Below, one piece after another: positions 4,708 through 25,045 of a stretch of 33,489 nucleotides of DNA (positions are counted from its first letter, which is position 1; every line of letters begins with the position of its first letter). The notes beneath the pieces are model-generated. The model was given only the letters and a program-made list of their open reading frames with translations. It ran no database searches and was not told the DNA's origin. This DNA comes from Gammaproteobacteria bacterium (GTDB lineage Bacteria; Pseudomonadota; Gammaproteobacteria; Eutrophobiales; Eutrophobiaceae), in contig JANQJZ010000041.1 of assembly GCA_028281365.1 (NCBI GenBank), forward strand, positions 1 to 33,489. The letters are read 5' to 3'. A program made the translations under genes and the position numbers.

Positions 4708-7155
4708 GTGTCTACTGAAAATTTATATGAGAATAATCTTGAGATTCAAATCCCGACAGAACAGAATGGGCTTGAATATCATGAACAATCATTAGTTCAT
4801 CCTGCTGAAAACAGTAATCGGGATCTGCACTACCTGTACCAACTGGCACCTTCAGGTATTATTCTTTCTATTGTTGCAGCTGTTCTGGTGTTTTGGTTTA
4901 TCCTGCCTGCAGTACCGGACTACTTATATATTCCCTGGTTAACATTCGTACTTTTAACCGCACTGGTTCACACACATATCGTAAAGGAATTTACCAAACA
5001 CAAGAATACAATACATATTAATAATCAGTGGGCAATCTACAATACATTTATAACAGGCGTAACTGCATTAACTTTCAGTGTAGGCTATTTACTTTTTTTA
5101 CCTTTACTTGATGGTTTTACACAAATTGTTTTACTGCTGATCCTGGCAACGATGACAGTCGCTTACTTACCAATCCTGTCTGTCTTTTTGCCTTCCTATA
5201 CCATATTAATATCGGCTTTTATTATTCCTCTCGTATTCTGGATATATTCCTTACCGCCTGAAACAGCTTATCCAGCTGCGGCATTACTAACTATAAGTTA
5301 TTGTACATTACTGGTCGCGGCAGCTTATTATTCGAAAACGTTACGCGAAATATTCAACCGAACAGGACTGGAAAACAAAAAAGTTAAGGTTCTTTATGAC
5401 ATTATTGAAAAATCCAGGTTACTTAACGACAAGTTAAAAAAAGAGATAGAAGAACAGGCAACAAGCAAAGAAAAAGTTTTTCATCAGAAAGAACTTGCGG
5501 AAATCACGTTACAGTCTATCGGTGAAGGGGTTATTTCAACAGACGCATTTGGAAAAATAAAATATGTTAACCCTGTCGCAGAGGTCTACATCGGTAGAAC
5601 GGCTAATGAAATAAAGAACAAGCATCTTTTATCCATAGTCAAACTTGTCGATAAACCAAGTAATCTGGAATTACTCGATCCGGTCAAACAATGTCTGGAT
5701 TCTGGTTGTCCGGTATCCAGTAATGAAAATTCTACACTAATTCGACGAGATGGACTGGAATACGCTATCGACTATAACACGACACCGATACTCGATAAGA
5801 ACAAACAAATAACCGGTTCTGTCATGGTTTTTCGGGATGTTACAGAAAAAAGAAACATGGAAAGAAATCTGGATTGGCAGGCAAAACATGATCCTTTAAC
5901 CGGCTTAATTAACCGTCGTGAATTTGACTATCGTCTGAATAGGATAATCACCAAGGAGAATGATTCCAATCGTGTACATGCGTTTTGCTATATTGACCTG
6001 GATCATTTCAAGCTGGTTAATGACAGTTGCGGTCATCAGGCAGGCGATGAACTTTTACAAATGATTGCAAATCGTTTAAAGAAAATAACACGTGATACAG
6101 ATACCCTGGCCCGGCTTGGCGGCGATGAATTCGCGATTATTATGTACAGTTGTAACCTGGATAAAGCGAAATTAATTGCTGAAATATTTCGTGAAGAAGT
6201 ATTTAAAACACGCTATCAATGGCATGAAAAAACTTTTACGGTATCTGCAAGTATTGGCATCGTACCATTGGATATTTCATCAGAAAATATTACCGAAATA
6301 AGAAGAATGGCGGATACCGCCTGTTATAGGGCTAAACGTGCTGGCGGCAACCGCGTTGAAATCTATGATCCTGATATTGCCGAAAGAAACGAGAATAACA
6401 GTGAATTAATATTATTACAGGATATTCAAACTAATATTGATAAGGAAACCTTCAAATTATTTACACAGAAAATAAAACCGCTGGATGATTTCAATGACAT
6501 TATCTTTCATGAAGTTCTCCTTAGAATGATAAAAGATAATGATGATATATTGACCGCAAATCAATTTATCCCTTTGGCCGAAACCTATCATATGCTTGAC
6601 CGGATTGATCAATGGGTATTCAAGGTCATCATGGAAATGATCGCTTATGGAAATCCGTTGTTTAATGAAGCACACATGATAAGCATGAACTTGTCACAAC
6701 AATCTATTATTAATGGTAAATTTATAAACTACGCCACCGAAATGTTCAGTGACTATGATATTCCTGCAGGTAATATCTGTTTTGAGGTTAAACAACCTCA
6801 ATTTTATGGAAATATGGAAAAGTTTAAGAGCTTTATTACACTGATGAAACGTCAAGGCTGCCGAATCGCGCTGGATGAATTTAATTACAACTCCACAAGT
6901 GTAAAAACTGTAAAAGGTTTATCAATCGATTACATAAAACTGGATGCGAGACAATTCCCGCAACTAAATAAAGAACAGGATTTCAATTATCAATTAGTCA
7001 ATTGCATTAATGAAATAAATCACCTGGCTGGTGCTCAAACGATAATGAAATGTGTTGAAAACGAAGAAGTTATAAATATGTATTACGATTTAGGTATTGA
7101 TTATGTACAAGGTTGCGCAATTTTGGCGCCTCAACTGGTAAATAATACCGGTTAA
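4708..7155 (+). CDS. membrane PAS-GGDEF-EAL protein (cyclic-di-GMP turnover)
   Basis: An 815-residue protein. About six hydrophobic segments span residues 48-210, followed by a coiled-coil-like stretch (220-260), a PAS domain (about 262-385), a GGDEF domain (about 390-555) and an EAL domain (about 570-812). The GGDEF motif is intact at 471-475 and is preceded at exactly five residues by an inhibitory R-D-T-D site, so it is probably an active, product-inhibited diguanylate cyclase. The EAL domain is degraded: E-V-L at 602-604 is kept, but the usual D-D-F-G is D-E-F-N (723-726) and A-E-G-V-E has become M-K-C-V-E, with Lys781 replacing a metal-binding Glu. Phosphodiesterase activity is therefore doubtful and it may bind c-di-GMP instead. 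The GTG start has AAAGGT upstream. Two CRP-type sites precede it. The gene ends 3 bp from the convergent antiporter gene. Confidence 0.93.
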   Translation: MSTENLYENNLEIQIPTEQNGLEYHEQSLVHPAENSNRDLHYLYQLAPSGIILSIVAAVLVFWFILPAVPDYLYIPWLTFVLLTALVHTHIVKEFTKHKNTIHINNQWAIYNTFITGVTALTFSVGYLLFLPLLDGFTQIVLLLILATMTVAYLPILSVFLPSYTILISAFIIPLVFWIYSLPPETAYPAAALLTISYCTLLVAAAYYSKTLREIFNRTGLENKKVKVLYDIIEKSRLLNDKLKKEIEEQATSKEKVFHQKELAEITLQSIGEGVISTDAFGKIKYVNPVAEVYIGRTANEIKNKHLLSIVKLVDKPSNLELLDPVKQCLDSGCPVSSNENSTLIRRDGLEYAIDYNTTPILDKNKQITGSVMVFRDVTEKRNMERNLDWQAKHDPLTGLINRREFDYRLNRIITKENDSNRVHAFCYIDLDHFKLVNDSCGHQAGDELLQMIANRLKKITRDTDTLARLGGDEFAIIMYSCNLDKAKLIAEIFREEVFKTRYQWHEKTFTVSASIGIVPLDISSENITEIRRMADTACYRAKRAGGNRVEIYDPDIAERNENNSELILLQDIQTNIDKETFKLFTQKIKPLDDFNDIIFHEVLLRMIKDNDDILTANQFIPLAETYHMLDRIDQWVFKVIMEMIAYGNPLFNEAHMISMNLSQQSIINGKFINYATEMFSDYDIPAGNICFEVKQPQFYGNMEKFKSFITLMKRQGCRIALDEFNYNSTSVKTVKGLSIDYIKLDARQFPQLNKEQDFNYQLVNCINEINHLAGAQTIMKCVENEEVINMYYDLGIDYVQGCAILAPQLVNNTG

Positions 7156-7158
7156 TAC

Positions 7159-8376
7159 CTAATTGCCTAATCTTTTCAATAAAAGTGGCATCGTAATGGT
7201 TTGTACAAACAACGTAAAGATTACTACGCCATAGGCGATTGATTGAATTGTGTACCAGTAATCCAGGCTTAAAGGTAAAGAAAGCGCTAACGCGATAGTT
7301 ACCGTACCTCGTACCCCACCCCAAACAAGAATAGTTTGTTGCTTAAACGGTACTTTCTCAATACCGGGTAGTAAAGAAATCAATGGGAATGCCCCTACAA
7401 TCGAGAGACATCGTGCCAGAGTAACTGCAGCAATGCCGATCAGGATGGCTAACCATTGATCTACAAACATACTCAATGTGATCGTGACTCCCGCCAACAA
7501 AAAGATTAATGATTCGGCTATCCTGGATAAAAACTGCCAAAATTGACTGGCAAAAGAATTTTCAGATAAGCGCTCTTCATTACAAATACCAATAACGATT
7601 CCACATAGAAGGACAGCGATGACGCCTGAAAAATGTAAAATATCCTCAGCAAGGATAAATGCTGTATAGGCACTGATGACACTGACTAGTACAAAAGCCT
7701 GTTGCGTTTTAAGTACCTTTAATAATAAACATGCAACAAAACCTACTAACCCGCCTGCTAGTAAGCCACCAAAAAACACCTCGGAAAAACGATAAAACAC
7801 CATACTAAAACCGGTTGCTTCATGACTACTTGTAGCAAGCACAATAAATATTGAAAATAAAACAATTGCAGTCGCATCATTAAAAAGACTCTCTCCCTCC
7901 AGCAACATACGTAATCGCTCCGGTGCATCTGCTTTTTTTAATAATGATATTACCGCAGCGGGATCTGTCGCAGATAATAATGCGCCGGTTATTAACGCTG
8001 CTATCCACGGGAATCCAGGCGGGTGATTAATTGCATAATAAACACCTGCAGCAGTAATAACAGCGGATAAAACCATTAATGGCAAGGCCATGATTAAAAT
8101 TGGTAAAAGATTTTTCCAGAGCAATTTAATATTAATTTCTATTGCCGCTTGAAATATCAGGATTGGTAAGATGATATAAAAGATAATTGTCTTAAAATTA
8201 TGCCAGCGTATCCCTGTGTCAATTTCAAAAACATGAATTGTAATTTCTGAACCAATAAAACCAAGGACTACCAGGATAATGGTAAAAGGGATGTGAAGCT
8301 TATTTACTAACGGTTCAATAAGCTCGGCAAGTAACAGCAGGATAATAAAGAACAGAATTGCATTAGTAGTGAGCAT
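7159..8376 (-). CDS. CPA1-family Na+/H+ antiporter
   Basis: A 405-residue inner-membrane protein with about 12 hydrophobic segments. Family motifs are A-T-D-P-A-A-V at 136-142 and E-G-E-S-L-F-N-D at 160-167, where Asn166-Asp167 form the ion-binding ND pair of NhaP/NHE-type exchangers. It has no large C-terminal regulatory domain, so it is a minimal NhaP-like exchanger. It probably expels Na+ (or K+) in exchange for protons for pH and salt homeostasis. It is separated from the doxX gene upstream by 80 bases containing a hairpin at 8404-8433, so it could be read from the hvf operon or have its own promoter. Confidence 0.9.
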   Translation of the reverse strand: MLTTNAILFFIILLLLAELIEPLVNKLHIPFTIILVVLGFIGSEITIHVFEIDTGIRWHNFKTIIFYIILPILIFQAAIEINIKLLWKNLLPILIMALPLMVLSAVITAAGVYYAINHPPGFPWIAALITGALLSATDPAAVISLLKKADAPERLRMLLEGESLFNDATAIVLFSIFIVLATSSHEATGFSMVFYRFSEVFFGGLLAGGLVGFVACLLLKVLKTQQAFVLVSVISAYTAFILAEDILHFSGVIAVLLCGIVIGICNEERLSENSFASQFWQFLSRIAESLIFLLAGVTITLSMFVDQWLAILIGIAAVTLARCLSIVGAFPLISLLPGIEKVPFKQQTILVWGGVRGTVTIALALSLPLSLDYWYTIQSIAYGVVIFTLFVQTITMPLLLKRLGN

Positions 8377-8456: not shown

Positions 8457-9092
8457 TTACGTTTGTCTGAATTTTTGTGCTAACCAATAATCGAGACTGA
8501 CGTATTTACCTCCTCCCATAACTAATAAAGCCAGTAATATGATGAAATAAGTAGCCGCCCATTCAATACCATTATTAGATACAATAAAATTACCATGTTC
8601 CGTCAACCAGCTATAATTTCCGTGCTCTCTTAAAATATCTTTAGCGCGACTAAGCCTTTCAATAGCTTCACCTGCATTTGCAGCGGCATGTGGACTTGAT
8701 AAATCATGAACAGCTTGCCAACCATACTGCCAATGAACTGTAACAGCAGCGACAATCATGGTGAACATTAAAGGAATTGATATCCAACGAGTTGCCAGCC
8801 CTAAAGCTAGAAGAATCGCACCAAAATATTCTGCACCCCACGCCAAGAATGCCATTAAATCAGGAAGAGGCATCCCAAGTGATTCACCAAACCACCTCGA
8901 TGTATGTTTCAATCCTTCTATAGGATTCAAAGTTCCATTTTCAGCAAATGGGTTCCATTTGTTATTACTCGCAACCCAGAATACAGGGACAATATAAATT
9001 CTAAGTAGTAAAGGGCCAATAAACCCTACTGCTTCAACTATCTTATTAAGAAGATCTTGAGCCCAATTCATTAAATTAATTATGCTAGTCAT
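8457..9092 (-). CDS. DoxX-family membrane protein (HvfD-like)
   Basis: A 211-residue DoxX-family protein with about four membrane segments: residues 20-40 with L-L-R-I-Y-I-V-P-V-F-W-V-A-S-N-N-K-W, 82-103, 107-124, and 178-195. A long, partly charged loop (about residues 130-170) lies between the third and fourth segments. DoxX proteins are often encoded at the end of MNIO/DUF692 RiPP operons, where the member is called HvfD in Haemophilus; their role there is unproven, with quinone-linked electron transfer or export suggested. GAGG lies nine bases before the ATG start. It is the last gene of the hvf-like operon, 27 bases after the FMN/Fe-S gene. Confidence 0.8.
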   Translation of the reverse strand: MTSIINLMNWAQDLLNKIVEAVGFIGPLLLRIYIVPVFWVASNNKWNPFAENGTLNPIEGLKHTSRWFGESLGMPLPDLMAFLAWGAEYFGAILLALGLATRWISIPLMFTMIVAAVTVHWQYGWQAVHDLSSPHAAANAGEAIERLSRAKDILREHGNYSWLTEHGNFIVSNNGIEWAATYFIILLALLVMGGGKYVSLDYWLAQKFRQT

Positions 9093-9119: not shown

Positions 9120-10619
9120 TCAGTTTGCGGGTTGTACATCTGGATGTAATTCATTTAGTGCAACAGACAACCCATTTTCTGTTACAACCCGGGCATGAAA
9201 ACGTTTTAATTGTCTGGGTGATTTAACACCACAGGAATGAGCAATGATCCCAACTTCTTTCACCATGTTTTTTGCATAGTTCATTACCCGGATTGCTTTA
9301 TTTTCAGGGTTAAGACCTTTTTGTAATTTTTTATTATGCGTTGTTATACCAGTTGGACAGGTATTCTTATTACATTGCAATGCCTGGATACAACCCAGTG
9401 CAAACATAAAGCCACGTGCTGAAGTGATAAAGTCTGCACCCATGCAAAGTGCCCAGGCAACATCTGTAGGAGTGATTAACTTACCCGAACTGATTACTTT
9501 TATTCGATCACGTAGACCATGTTCATTTAATTTATCAATGAGTAAAGGCAAGCTTTCACGCAACGGCAAACCAACGTCATCCATTAACGGCATGGGCGCT
9601 GCTCCGGTACCACCATCGGCACTATCTACAGTTATAAAATCAGGCGCACTTTCAACACCGCGTTCCTTTATTTCGATAAATAAATTGTCTAACCAGCCAT
9701 ATGCACCGATAACTGTTTTAAACCCAACGGGTTTACCACTAACATTTCGAATTCGTTCGATTACGTCTAACAGGTCGGTATTACTATTAATATCAGTATG
9801 GCGGTTTGGACTAATCGCATCTGAACCTTCCGGGATACCACGTATGTTCGCAATTTCTTTGGTTACCTTGCCACCGGGTAATATGCCACCTTTGCCTGGC
9901 TTTGCTCCCTGACTCAGTTTTATTTCAAACATTTTGACTGCATCATGGGCCGCCACTTCCCTGATCCTATCGTCGTTTAAATTACCTTCGAGGTCACGAA
10001 CACCATTCTTGGCTGTACCAATCTGAAAGACGATATCCGCACCACCTTCCAAATGATATGGTGATAACCCACCTTCACCGGTATTCATCCAACAACCTGC
10101 CATACGTGCACCTTTGGATAAGGCTAATACAGCCGGTTTGGAAATCGCGCCGTAACTCATACCTGAGATATTAAACAATGATGGTGTTGTATATGGTTTG
10201 TCAGTATGTGGTCCAATTGTTACCGGCACGGGCTCAACGGCATCCTTGCCCAGAGTAGGAAACGGACAGTTTACAAATAACACTGTTCCTGGTGGACTTA
10301 AGTCCCTGGATGAACCAAAGGCAATGGTATTATCAACATTCTTTGCAGCGCGATAGGCCCACGAACGTTGTGCCCGGTTGAAAGGCATTTCCTCACGATC
10401 CATTGCAAAGAAATATTGTCTGAAGAATTCTCCCAGATGTTCAAAATAATACCTGAAGTGACCGACGACAGGATAATTACGTCTTATTGCAGATTTTGTC
10501 TGAGTAATATCAAGCATAAAAACAATAATTATTACAAGAACTGCCAGTCCAATAATAAAAATAAATAAAGCGGCCATTACTTCCAAGAAAATAAACAGCC
10601 AATGCATGTCCTCAAACAT
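9120..10619 (-). CDS. membrane-anchored FMN-binding glutamate-synthase-like protein
   Basis: A 499-residue protein with an N-terminal hydrophobic segment (about residues 7-40) followed by a GOGAT central/FMN-binding domain (GltB2-like). Visible family strings are I-S-G-M-S-Y-G-A-I-S, N-T-G-E-G-G-L, K-L-S-Q-G-A-K-P-G-K-G-G, D-S-A-D-G-G-T-G-A-A-P and the cluster motif C-x5-C-x4-C at Cys410, Cys416 and Cys421, which binds a [3Fe-4S] cluster in glutamate synthase. The glutaminase domain is absent, so it is not a complete glutamate synthase. It is likely an FMN/Fe-S oxidoreductase of unknown substrate facing the cytoplasm. AGGTGG lies eight bases before the ATG. It sits between the HvfC-like gene (83-base gap) and the DoxX gene (27-base gap), which suggests a role with the modified peptide. 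Confidence 0.85.
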   Translation of the reverse strand: MFEDMHWLFIFLEVMAALFIFIIGLAVLVIIIVFMLDITQTKSAIRRNYPVVGHFRYYFEHLGEFFRQYFFAMDREEMPFNRAQRSWAYRAAKNVDNTIAFGSSRDLSPPGTVLFVNCPFPTLGKDAVEPVPVTIGPHTDKPYTTPSLFNISGMSYGAISKPAVLALSKGARMAGCWMNTGEGGLSPYHLEGGADIVFQIGTAKNGVRDLEGNLNDDRIREVAAHDAVKMFEIKLSQGAKPGKGGILPGGKVTKEIANIRGIPEGSDAISPNRHTDINSNTDLLDVIERIRNVSGKPVGFKTVIGAYGWLDNLFIEIKERGVESAPDFITVDSADGGTGAAPMPLMDDVGLPLRESLPLLIDKLNEHGLRDRIKVISSGKLITPTDVAWALCMGADFITSARGFMFALGCIQALQCNKNTCPTGITTHNKKLQKGLNPENKAIRVMNYAKNMVKEVGIIAHSCGVKSPRQLKRFHARVVTENGLSVALNELHPDVQPAN

Positions 10620-10702
10620 ATATTGTCCACCTGGTGTTATATTTTTTATTCTGCTTGCTTCACAAGCAAAGATACGATAGTTCTAATTGACTAATTAATC
10701 GT

Positions 10703-11479
10703 TTACCTGGTTCCTAATACAACATCTTTGGTTCGAAAGTCATTTAGTATTTCCAGACCACCCTGAATAACAATATCTGGATCAGGGTGATTGAGCTGTT
10801 CTGCGATAGAGATAAGAATTTCTTTACCGGACTTTTCATTATTATTAGTTAACTCTTCAATTAACTTTGCTGAAACCGGGTTTAATTCCATAAATCCCAT
10901 CTCATAATTCCGATCACGATAAACAATTAAATAAGTTGGCAGATCCGGTTTCTCATCAGGGAGAAAATCCGGACTAAGCCTGTGAACCGGCCATTGATAA
11001 GCCAATGGTATAACTAATGGACTAAGTTGAGGTATGCCTTTTAGTAAATCACCTTCCTGATCAATTCCATCGAATGAAATTTGCCGTTGATCCAGCATTA
11101 ACTGGGACTCAATCCATTCATAATGTGCTAACTCAAAATAGAATTCAGGATCATTGTCACTATCCCGTTCTGATTCCAGATAGTTTAGAAACTCGAGCGG
11201 CATTTTTGGAAAATACGGTGTATGGGAAATATGACGATTGACATAATCACGTATCATTTTGTGCCAATCATCGTTCCTGGTTATCTTTCGTAACACAGGA
11301 AAACTGTTTGCAATAAAACTTTCAATGTTGCGATAGATTAAATCCGCATAGATCGCTACACGTCGCTGTTCAATTCCTTCCGGGGCCGGTGCATTATCAG
11401 GATCACGCATATGCCTGGTGAAGGCATACTGGATATCTTTAAACGAATCAGGCTTTGTGTTGCTTTGTGATCTTGTCAT
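10703..11479 (-). CDS. DUF2063-family RiPP partner protein (HvfC/BufC-like)
   Basis: A 258-residue protein. The N-terminal DUF2063 domain has the typical R-R-V-A-I-Y-A-D-L-I-Y-R-N-I and S-F-P-V-L-R-K-I strings. A C-terminal region contains A-Y-Q-W-P-V-H-R-L-S and ends in a helical D-I-V-I-Q-G-G-L-E-I-L segment. These proteins bind the precursor peptide and are required by the adjacent DUF692 oxidase. I chose the ATG at 11479; the frame can be extended to a TTG at 11494. Either way it overlaps the end of the HvfB-like gene (32 bases for the ATG), which implies tight translational coupling and equal amounts of the two subunits. Confidence 0.88.
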   Translation of the reverse strand: MTRSQSNTKPDSFKDIQYAFTRHMRDPDNAPAPEGIEQRRVAIYADLIYRNIESFIANSFPVLRKITRNDDWHKMIRDYVNRHISHTPYFPKMPLEFLNYLESERDSDNDPEFYFELAHYEWIESQLMLDQRQISFDGIDQEGDLLKGIPQLSPLVIPLAYQWPVHRLSPDFLPDEKPDLPTYLIVYRDRNYEMGFMELNPVSAKLIEELTNNNEKSGKEILISIAEQLNHPDPDIVIQGGLEILNDFRTKDVVLGTR

Positions 11480-12311
11480 CGTCTTCGACAGCAAAACTGG
11501 ATTGAATAGATTTGATTTTATCTACTTCAATTAATAATTCTTCAAGGGGTGGTATGTTGAAGTCTCTCTCTAACAAAGTCGGGAATACGCCAAAATGTTC
11601 GTAGGCCTTTTCAAGCAGTGTCCAAACCGGATCTATTACATCTGCACCATGTGTGTCGACCCGGAGATCTTCTGCTTCATTATAATGTCCAGCGATATGT
11701 GCATAAGCAATTCGTTTGCCCGGTAATGCTTTCATATACTCTTCCGGATCGTAACGATGATTAATGCTATTCACATAGATATTATTTATATCTATTAGTA
11801 AATCGCAGTCCGCTTCTTCCAGGACTGCGTTAACAAATTCTATCTCTTGCATTTCCTGGCCGGGCGCAGCGTAATAGGAGACGTTTTCTATCGCCATACG
11901 TCGACCAATAATATCCTGAGTCTTTTTTATTCTATCTGATACATAGTTTACCGCTTCTTCGGTAAACGGGATGGGCATGAGATCATAGAGATGGCCATCA
12001 TCGGCACAATAGCTTAGGTGTTCGCTATAACAACGTATGTTATGAGTATCGATAAATTGTCTGACTTTTCTCAAGAAAGGTTCATCAAGCGGTGCGGGAC
12101 CACCAAGGTTCAGGGACAAACCATGACAAACAAAGGGAATCCTTTCATTTATAGATTTAAACAAATGACCATAACGCCCACCGACATCAATCCAGTTTTC
12201 GGGCGCAACTTCCATAAAGTCAACCTGGTCTGGAAAATGATTTGCGGCGGTACCAATAAAGGCCCGCCGCAAACCGAGACCCGTACCATGTACTGGGTAA
12301 TTTTTTGTCAT
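11448..12311 (-). CDS. DUF692 multinuclear non-heme iron oxidase (HvfB/BufB-like)
   Basis: A 287-residue DUF692/MNIO protein with a TIM-barrel fold. Likely metal ligands follow the family pattern: His63 in C-H-G-L-S-L, Glu97 in S-E-H-L-S, Glu142-Asn143 in I-E-N-V-S, Asp174 in I-D-I-N-N, His205 and His209 in A-H-I-A-G-H, Asp219 and His221 in V-D-T-H-G, and Glu248 in L-E-R-D. MNIO enzymes use two or three iron atoms and oxygen to modify cysteines in precursor peptides. HvfB of Haemophilus is reported to convert the Cys of EGKCG motifs to oxazolone-thioamide groups that bind copper. It starts 27 bases after the precursor gene, with no clear ribosome binding site, and overlaps the HvfC-like gene. 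Confidence 0.93.
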   Translation of the reverse strand: MTKNYPVHGTGLGLRRAFIGTAANHFPDQVDFMEVAPENWIDVGGRYGHLFKSINERIPFVCHGLSLNLGGPAPLDEPFLRKVRQFIDTHNIRCYSEHLSYCADDGHLYDLMPIPFTEEAVNYVSDRIKKTQDIIGRRMAIENVSYYAAPGQEMQEIEFVNAVLEEADCDLLIDINNIYVNSINHRYDPEEYMKALPGKRIAYAHIAGHYNEAEDLRVDTHGADVIDPVWTLLEKAYEHFGVFPTLLERDFNIPPLEELLIEVDKIKSIQSSFAVEDDDKITKQHKA

Positions 12312-12338: not shown

Positions 12339-12671
12339 TTAGCTGCCGCACTTACCTTCGCCACACTTACCTTCGCCGCCTTTATCGCCGCACTTACCTT
12401 CACCACATTTACCTTCGGCTTTCTTATCACCACACTTACCTTCGCCGCATTTACCTTCGCCGCCTTTATCACCACACTTGCCTTCGCCGCATTTACCTTC
12501 GCCGCATTTACCTTCACCATCACCATGTTCAGCAACCATATAACCATTACCGATTTGAGTAGCAGTAAAAGGATTATCAGCGGCATTTACAACAGGGCTT
12601 GCAGATAGCGAAATTGCAAACGTAGTTCCAAGCGCAACAGCTATAGGATTAAGTTTATTTTTATCTGACAT
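12339..12671 (-). CDS. RiPP precursor with nine EGKCG repeats (HvfA-like)
   Basis: A 110-residue protein. Residues 1-30 form a signal peptide (basic start, hydrophobic core V-A-L-G-T-T-F-A-I-S-L, cleavage after V-V-N-A). A leader-like segment follows (31-52, with F-T-A-T-Q-I-G-N-G-Y-M-V-A). Residues 53-109 are a core of nine EGKCG motifs in groups of 3, 2, 2 and 2, separated by DKGG, DKKA and DKGG. All nine cysteines are in these motifs. The frame opens at 12698, but the ATG at 12671 has a near-perfect AGGAGGAACGAAAG in front and gives a clean signal peptide. The protein probably enters the periplasm after cytoplasmic modification by the DUF692/DUF2063 pair, as in hvf/bufferin systems. Copper binding is inferred by analogy. 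Confidence 0.92.
   Translation of the reverse strand: MSDKNKLNPIAVALGTTFAISLSASPVVNAADNPFTATQIGNGYMVAEHGDGEGKCGEGKCGEGKCGDKGGEGKCGEGKCGDKKAEGKCGEGKCGDKGGEGKCGEGKCGS
12345..12515 (-). repeat. tandem 15-bp repeats encoding EGKCG units
   Basis: Nine copies of a 15-bp unit (minus strand GAAGGTAAGTGCGGC-like) encode the EGKCG motifs, interrupted by three 12-bp spacers. On the plus strand this reads as runs of GCCGCACTTACCTTC. It is protein-coding low complexity, not a CRISPR array. Confidence 0.95.
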
Positions 12672-12938
12672 CTTTCGTTCCTCCTGGAGGGTTGACAATA
12701 AAAATAATACCTTTCAGGTACTATCAGTTTGTTAAATTGTACAATTCAACGCTAAAGATATATTGAGATATAAATGGTTTCCTGGAAAAAATTACTAGAC
12801 CCCTTTATATCCCTACACAGGTTAATTGACTAAGCCATGCTGGAAAAGTTTCTTTTTCAAACAAAAACCCTGTTAATGAAGTTAAATTATAAGTATATGA
12901 ATTTAAAGAAAATTTAAGTCCCTTGTTAAATAATTCAG
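12672..12938 (-). other. intergenic region between lysS and the hvf-like operon
   Basis: These 267 AT-rich bases carry the ribosome binding site and probable promoter of the hvf-like operon. They contain the palindrome at 12731-12750 and a small TTTCC-T-GGAAA palindrome at 12778-12788. I see no convincing ORF or strong terminator after lysS here. Confidence 0.6.
12731..12750 (-). promoter_or_regulatory. palindrome upstream of the hvfA-like gene, candidate operator
   Basis: The central 12 bases AATTGTACAATT are a perfect palindrome and symmetry extends, with one mismatch, to GTT...AAC over 20 bp. It is 60-79 bases upstream of the start codon, overlapping a weak TTGAAT -35 with GATAGT 18 bases later. 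The regulator is unknown. Confidence 0.4.
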
Positions 12939-23602: not shown

Positions 23603-25045
23603 ATGACTAATGCGCTAAAAATTGCCGAGTCCAATCTACTTACTAATCGCGGTTTGGAAATTGATGACGTTCAAAATACTTTGGACCATGTCATGCTTTC
23701 TTCAATTGATCAGGCTGATTTATATTTTCAATCGTCTTATTCCGAATCCTGGGTATTGGAGGATGGAATTGTTAGAGAGGGTTCTCATAATATTGATCAA
23801 GGCGTAGGTGTGAGGGCTATCAGTGGAGAAAAAACCGGTTTTGCCTATTCAGATGAAATTATTCTTCCGGCATTAACCCAGGCGGCTTCTGCTGCAAGAT
23901 CTATTGCCAGTCATGGTGATAATGGCCATCTTCAGGCATGGCATAAAACCAACACACCTGTACTTTATAGTGATGTTAACCCTATTGATTCAATAAATGC
24001 TGAAGAAAAGGTAAATCTGTTAAAACAGCTTGATCAAGCAGCACGTAAAAAAGACACCAGGGTTAAACAGGTTATGATCGGTTTAACCGGTTCGCAATCC
24101 ACAATACTCGTCGCTAACAGCGAAGGCATGCTTACTGGAGATGTGCGGCCATTAGTAAGATTAAATGTTAATGTTATTGTTGAAGAAAATGGGCGCATTG
24201 AAAAAGGTGGTTCCGGCGGTGGTGGTCGTTTTGGTTATGAATATTTTTTAACTGATGATATGGCAATGTCTTATGTTAATGAAGCTATCGAGCAGGCTTT
24301 AATTAACCTTGAGTCAGTCGCTGCACCTGCAGGCAGCATGCCTGTAGTACTTGGCCCGGGTTGGCCAGGCATTTTGTTACATGAAGCTATTGGCCATGGT
24401 CTTGAAGGAGATTTTAATCGTAAACAAACTTCTGCGTTTTCCGGGCGCATTGGCGAACGCGTTGCATCTCCCGAGGTTACTGTTGTAGATGACGGTACAA
24501 TTGAAAACCGCCGGGGATCATTAAACGTTGACGATGAAGGCACTCCGACTTCTTCAACAACATTAATTGAACGCGGAATATTAAAAGCTTATATGCAGGA
24601 CAAACACAATGCACGTTTAATGGGAGTTGCACCTACCGGTAATGGACGCCGTGAATCCTATGCACATTTGCCAATGCCGCGTATGACCAATACCTATATG
24701 CTTAATGGTCAACACAATCCGGAAGATATTATTGCGTCAGTTGATAACGGCATCTATGCAGTACAATTTGGCGGTGGTCAGGTTGATATCACTAATGGCA
24801 AATTTGTTTTTAGTGCCAGTCAGGCCTACAAGATTGAAAACGGTAAAATTACATCACCTGTTAAAGGAGCTACGATTATTGGCAATGGACCAGATGTTTT
24901 AACTCGTGTCAGTATGGTCGGCAATGATATGGCTTTAGATTCAGGTATAGGTACATGTGGCAAGGATGGACAATCTGTCCCGGTTGGTGTGGGACAACCG
25001 ACAATACGAATTGATGATATTACCGTTGGTGGAACGAGTACCTAA
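23603..25045 (+). CDS. tldD: metalloprotease TldD
   Basis: A 480-residue TldD. The zinc-binding motif H-E-A-I-G-H is at residues 260-265, followed by G-L-E-G-D-F and a conserved G-x-x-x-D-D-E-G-T-P region. With TldE (PmbA, not in this window) it forms a heterodimeric protease that trims unfolded peptides and matures some RiPPs, such as microcin B17, and helps degrade the CcdA antitoxin. It is convergent with, and overlaps by 4 bp, the MFS transporter gene. A RiPP operon is encoded about 11 kb away, but no direct link is shown. Confidence 0.96.

Follow-up and report, generated by a model that had tools for sequence, protein, structure and literature searches.

A membrane-anchored glutamate-synthase-like protein is a recurrent accessory gene of hvf clusters in gammaproteobacterial genomes

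The window analysed here is a stretch of 33,489 nucleotides from a gammaproteobacterial genome of the family Eutrophobiaceae (assembly GCA_028281365.1, contig JANQJZ010000041.1). Its minus strand carries genes in the order hvfA-hvfB-hvfC-GSL-hvfX-CPA1 antiporter (Table 1), separated by 27, -47, 83, 27 and 80 nt, respectively; GSL denotes a glutamate-synthase-like protein that lacks a glutaminase domain. The presence of a KCG-repeat HvfA together with HvfB, HvfC and the DoxX protein HvfX identifies the locus as an hvf/oxazolin MNIO RiPP cluster. HvfA scores above the cut-off of the KCG-repeat domain model NF050137 (55.5 bits) and below that of the full equivalog model NF050188 (52.6 bits, cut-off 95). 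The antiporter, which also belongs to the hvf unit of the window and was absent from the first-pass annotation, does not reach the cut-off of any ion-specific NCBIfam model.

Table 1. Features of the hvf operon in the window (minus strand; positions are those of the window)
Feature	Coordinates	Strand	Basis or remark
HvfA precursor, (E)GKCG repeats, signal-peptide-like N-terminus	12339..12698	-	NF050137, NF050188; ATG near 12671
HvfB, MNIO (DUF692) RiPP maturase	11448..12311	-	NF003818, 444.6 bits (cut-off 360); PF05114
HvfC, RiPP-recognition-element partner protein (DUF2063)	10703..11494	-	NF050145, 285.4 bits (cut-off 142); 47-nt overlap with hvfB
Gap of 83 nt between hvfC and GSL; holds the GSL ribosome binding site	10620..10702	-	Simple scan
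GSL, glutaminase-less glutamate-synthase-like FMN/[3Fe-4S] protein, membrane-anchored, 499 aa	9120..10619	-	PF01645; structure matches; residues kept
GSL N-terminal membrane anchor, residues 2-39	10503..10616	-	Hydropathy and predicted helix
HvfX, DoxX-family membrane protein, 27 nt 3' of GSL	8457..9092	-	NF050144, 205 bits (cut-off 80); PF07681
CPA1-type cation/proton antiporter, 80 nt 3' of hvfX	7159..8376	-	PF00999, 208 bits

The first-pass annotation had placed the GSL gene between hvfC and the DoxX gene, in line with both, and had credited it with a strong ribosome binding site. The same-strand positions of the neighbouring genes and the sequence AGGTGG-ACAATAT-ATG, in which AGGTGG stands 7 bases 5' of the start codon, bear this out, and a simple scan of 10620-10702 found no terminator-like or promoter-like site. 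The core set named in that annotation, HvfABCD, needs correction, as the described set consists of HvfABC and HvfX, the DoxX protein being named HvfX and not HvfD (PMC13419390).

Like the hvf/oxazolin (EGKCG) MNIO clusters of Pseudomonadota (PMC12452194, PMC12668002, PMC13419390), the window presents HvfA, HvfB, HvfC and HvfX in order on one strand; unlike them, it adds GSL and the antiporter. Published MNIO surveys describe a four-gene core, further conserved genes being rare; those consulted here mention DoxX and a few uncommon redox genes (oxidored_molybd, ferric reductase), but neither a GSL-like protein nor an antiporter. The copper-induced gigPABT operon of Cupriavidus metallidurans is similarly composed of a precursor, the metal-binding GigA, a DUF2063 protein and a DoxX-like protein, and as described it contains neither GSL nor an antiporter, in contrast to the window (PMC10304878). 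We found no report of a GSL-hvf association in the open-licence literature, so its absence there is not proof.

Other features of the window were also noted. A perfect dyad, TACCTGAAAGGTA, occupies positions 12707-12719, 49 nt 5' of the hvfA ATG; it was considered as a copper-type operator and rejected, being absent at that place in all linked relatives examined. A gene for a PAS-GGDEF-EAL protein (4708-7155) converges on the antiporter gene, with 3 nt between their ends. Far from the hvf operon, at 23603-25045, lies a gene for a metallopeptidase of the PmbA/TldD family, which matures some other RiPPs.

The minus-strand open reading frame at 9120-10619 is real and begins with ATG. The sole Pfam match across the 499 residues of its product is the Glu_synthase domain (PF01645; 301 bits, E 1.5e-89, residues 143-465; cut-off 20.4), and no glutaminase domain was found. 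The cluster motif C-x5-C-x4-C ([3Fe-4S]) is formed by C410, C416 and C421, and residues 2-39 form a long hydrophobic helix (best 19-residue hydropathy 3.5), with a comparable N-terminal stretch in 143 of 144 relatives. The FMN domain, the cluster motif, the missing glutaminase domain and the membrane anchor had all been proposed in the first-pass annotation, and all of them stand.

Both by sequence and by fold, the solved structures nearest to GSL are glutamate synthases. The top fold match of the GSL model (pLDDT 86.8) is 1ofd, a glutamate synthase with bound 2-oxoglutarate. Examination of the alignment with 1llw, on which the Synechocystis positions were counted, shows that E182, K234, Q237, K240 and R260 of GSL correspond to E903, K966, Q969, K972 and R992 of the Synechocystis ferredoxin-dependent glutamate synthase, which we take to be residues of its 2-oxoglutarate/FMN site. 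All five are kept in GSL and, like the three cysteines, are invariant across 41 aligned relatives that cover two subfamilies. GSL thus shares with the glutamate synthase large chain (GltB, Fd-GltS) the FMN barrel, the cluster motif, the 2-oxoglutarate-site residues and the best sequence and fold matches; it differs in its single membrane anchor, its size (about 500 against about 1500 residues) and the lack of the N-terminal glutaminase, so that no glutamine-derived ammonia is channelled. Elsewhere in the same genome lies a distinct GltB-type open frame (1523 aa), which makes GSL an extra paralogue. It falls in the loosely named stand-alone "FMN-binding glutamate synthase family protein" group (PF01645), which has the same domain layout and includes MgsC-type and YerD-type proteins. 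From these other stand-alone proteins it is set apart as a membrane-anchored, mainly gammaproteobacterial clade with recurrent neighbours of its own, namely hvf genes, the CPA1 antiporter and a thiamine (TPP) enzyme with an aldehyde dehydrogenase (ALDH). We know of no activity for this subfamily. Glutamate synthase releases ammonia in its glutaminase domain, and the addition of this ammonia to 2-oxoglutarate takes place in front of FMN (PMC8097209); lacking that domain, GSL must draw on free ammonia or on an amine, unless it works in the direction of 2-oxoglutarate.

The recurrence of the GSL-hvf arrangement was assessed in 185 genomes of the class, which contain 75 GSL genes (at least 52% identity, that of the window included), with flanks of about 8.5 kb inspected on either side wherever the contig was long enough. 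Most frequent around them, in each case on the strand of GSL, are the antiporter, HvfC, HvfX, the aldehyde dehydrogenase, the thiamine-dependent enzyme and HvfB. A further 80 named loci were added and near-identical copies dropped, giving 148 non-redundant GSL loci. In 47 of these, hvfB, hvfC or hvfX lies on the same strand within 9 kb (hvfB or hvfC in 34), and in 8 the hvf genes are on the opposite strand; the antiporter is found in 35, and the thiamine enzyme or aldehyde dehydrogenase in 42. In the 31 genomes that have both genes, counting from coordinates gave 15 GSL-HvfC pairs no more than 5 kb apart, where chance would give about 0.15; kinship of the genomes inflates such a probability. 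The first-pass annotation had allowed that the link would probably be fortuitous if confined to this genome; these counts reject a unique or chance arrangement and establish the link as real. In a more distant subfamily (38-46% identity), one HvfX neighbour was seen among 26 loci.

A neighbourhood shared through the frequent landing of a widespread, housekeeping-like gene beside hvf, or through inheritance from one ancestor, with no functional coupling, would account for the roughly two thirds of GSL loci that have no hvf neighbour and for the mild co-occurrence of GSL and hvf at the genome level (odds ratio 2.0, p 0.026). It would also fit the rnf-nth genes beside 19 of the 51 hvfC loci that lack GSL, which look like an inherited position. 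The excess of close pairs speaks against this explanation, as does the diversity of the linked loci: they display more than 30 distinct scored gene orders (some distinct only through contig ends), among them ABCGXN, ABCXGN, ABGXC, AGXBC, GXNBC and ABCtdGXN, with the strand kept. On the tree, linkage was gained or lost 17-21 times, many branches being weakly supported; the independent tree pairs with support that bear on hvf linkage versus NHE or TPP co-variation are few. The varied orders and repeated changes argue against a single inherited accident, and we consider mere neighbourhood improbable. Same-strand GSL-hvf linkage recurs in gammaproteobacterial genomes beyond chance, and GSL is a recurrent accessory gene of hvf clusters.

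GSL is an optional and not a core member of these clusters, since fewer than half of the hvfC loci carry it: in the class sample it is present at 15 of the 66 hvfC loci above the cut-off. The 51 loci without GSL have HvfX in 27 cases, rnf-nth in 19, the thiamine/aldehyde enzymes in 3 and the antiporter in 1. The antiporter accompanies 25 of the 47 hvf loci with GSL against 1/51 without (p 3e-9), and the thiamine/aldehyde enzymes 15/47 against 3/51 (p 0.001). The antiporter and the thiamine/aldehyde pair therefore track GSL, and rnf-nth tracks hvf. The latter was considered as a GSL partner supplying ferredoxin and set aside, as it is not specific to loci with GSL. About 19 of the 51 hvf clusters without GSL (L245-L295) directly follow rnf-nth, a chromosomal position shared by many families. 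Other arrangements were also observed: one locus (L088:1588-11741) has, on a single strand, two hvfB/hvfC sets flanking the thiamine enzyme, the aldehyde dehydrogenase and GSL, and in Ca. Thiodiazotropha and Ctena symbiont genomes (L190, L195, L199, L201) opposite-strand HvfB-type genes lie on both sides of a thiamine enzyme and GSL pair.

The first-pass annotation had suggested that GSL might be paired with DoxX, and gene order supports this pairing. Of the 41 hvf-linked GSL loci that have HvfX, 40 have it as the next scored gene (other open reading frames lie between the two at locus L113), and in hvfBC loci HvfX is found more often with GSL (28/34) than without it (27/51; p 0.006). Moreover, GSL and HvfX occur together in two near-complete genomes, G137 and G146, that have no HvfB. 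The possibility that GSL-linked HvfX proteins form a separate clade was rejected: the label is clustered on the tree (14 changes versus 21.8 in shuffles), yet does not define one clade.

These counts would also suit a role of GSL and HvfX as a membrane electron-transfer pair serving the peptide pathway, an electron-donating role having been raised in the first-pass annotation; the pair might hold the iron cofactor of HvfB in its active, mixed-valent form, reduce the thiols of HvfA, or exchange electrons between quinone and the copper peptide. In this regard, HvfBC in vitro needs a reductant for a reduced cofactor and thiols (PMC13419390), and for GigT, a DoxX relative encoded by the copper-induced gig operon, a transfer of electrons to the quinone pool has been proposed (PMC10304878). 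However, DTT suffices as that reductant (PMC13419390), HvfABC works with no GSL present, both in E. coli and in vitro (PMC12668002, PMC13419390), and most hvfC loci (51/66) do without it. The GSL-HvfX pair is also present in G137 and G146, which have no HvfB, and a plain electron carrier would not need the fully kept 2-oxoglutarate site. We regard this role as rather unlikely.

The first-pass annotation had further proposed that GSL may be an extra tailoring enzyme. Such an enzyme would act directly on HvfA by means of its FMN. Its position in the operon would agree with this, as would one locus of G137 (L079:7804-10657), where GSL and HvfX come directly after an HvfA rich in KCGEGKCGG repeats; the search of this genome, which is 99% complete, turned up neither HvfB nor HvfC. 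Nevertheless, GSL has no peptide-recognition domain, its small-molecule site is intact, most GSL genes have no HvfA or MNIO gene anywhere near them, and its close relatives instead adjoin 2-oxoglutarate-type enzymes. The formation of the HvfBC product without GSL, in vitro and in E. coli, where HvfBC modifies HvfA (PMC12668002), argues against an essential tailoring role. The proposal is thus weakened, also by the many hvfC loci that lack GSL, and we consider it very unlikely.

The thiamine enzyme linked to GSL matches NF006187, a model named for acetolactate synthase (705 bits, cut-off 509). Residues of the type H385, K386, M410, D462 and Y465 line the Microcystis 2-oxoglutarate decarboxylase (PMC10418658), and among 39 linked enzymes they are present in 32, 37, 37, 37 and 37, respectively. 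The acetolactate synthase of this genome itself, read by eye, has Q at the K386 position and N at the D462 position. As a lead, the linked enzyme would resemble a 2-oxoglutarate decarboxylase, the sole control for the comparison being that acetolactate synthase. The linked aldehyde dehydrogenase matched no specific model over cut-off. The cyanobacterial bypass comprises a 2-oxoglutarate decarboxylase and a succinic semialdehyde dehydrogenase (PMC10418658, PMC5160925), and the thiamine enzyme beside many GSL genes is similar at the checked residues and adjoined by an aldehyde dehydrogenase. It differs in the name of the matching model, and the pair is absent from the window.

The intact site, the fold match and the TPP/ALDH neighbours would place GSL in 2-oxoglutarate/glutamate chemistry. 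Because the 2-oxoglutarate-site residues are kept and the antiporter, TPP enzyme and ALDH are neighbours, a 2-oxoglutarate/glutamate redox enzyme is favoured over peptide tailoring. In the explanation that we prefer, and which we hold to have about an even chance of being correct, such an enzyme is part of an optional stress module of the hvf operon, co-expressed with the copper peptide. Here we infer the cofactor loading, reaction, direction, electron partner, co-transcription and stress role of GSL. The cytoplasmic barrel would bind FMN and a [3Fe-4S] cluster and would turn 2-oxoglutarate and free ammonia (or an amine) into L-glutamate or catalyse the reverse; the cluster would exchange electrons with a partner that is ferredoxin-like or lies on the membrane side, possibly HvfX. 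GSL, HvfX and the cation/proton antiporter would form the optional module, expressed together with the copper-binding peptide made by HvfABC, and may keep glutamate supply and proton balance going when copper or acid disables the ordinary Fe-S glutamate synthase. In Bacillus subtilis, glutamate synthase activity is down 87% under Cu(I) (PMC4554457), and the acid tolerance of a Castellaniella isolate is critically dependent on glutamate synthesis (PMC12915299).

Several observations stand against the preferred explanation. GSL has a [3Fe-4S] motif of its own and so may withstand copper no better than ordinary glutamate synthase does. A full-length GltB-type frame is already present in the genome, the genes next to GSL include none for a dedicated electron partner or ammonia donor, and, as noted, the window lacks the TPP/ALDH pair and most GSL loci lack hvf neighbours. 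In a bolder version, which we consider doubtful, a family of copper-peptide operons would bring along a membrane-anchored glutamate synthase of its own that uses free ammonia, together with an antiporter and, in some genomes, a bypass from 2-oxoglutarate to succinate that needs neither CoA nor lipoate. As a set, these would circumvent copper-poisoned Fe-S and lipoyl enzymes, with GSL and HvfX as a membrane redox unit. If true, copper-peptide operons would possess a metabolic arm of copper defence.

An accessory GSL module thus recurs in about a quarter of the hvfC loci of the sampled class. It provides a testable partner for HvfX, and its linkage to hvf opens a large, unstudied group of stand-alone glutamate-synthase-like proteins to genetic analysis. 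The concrete hypothesis that arises links copper-peptide production with 2-oxoglutarate/glutamate metabolism and pH homeostasis, and suggests that copper buffering may in some bacteria be tied to the metabolism of glutamate and 2-oxoglutarate.
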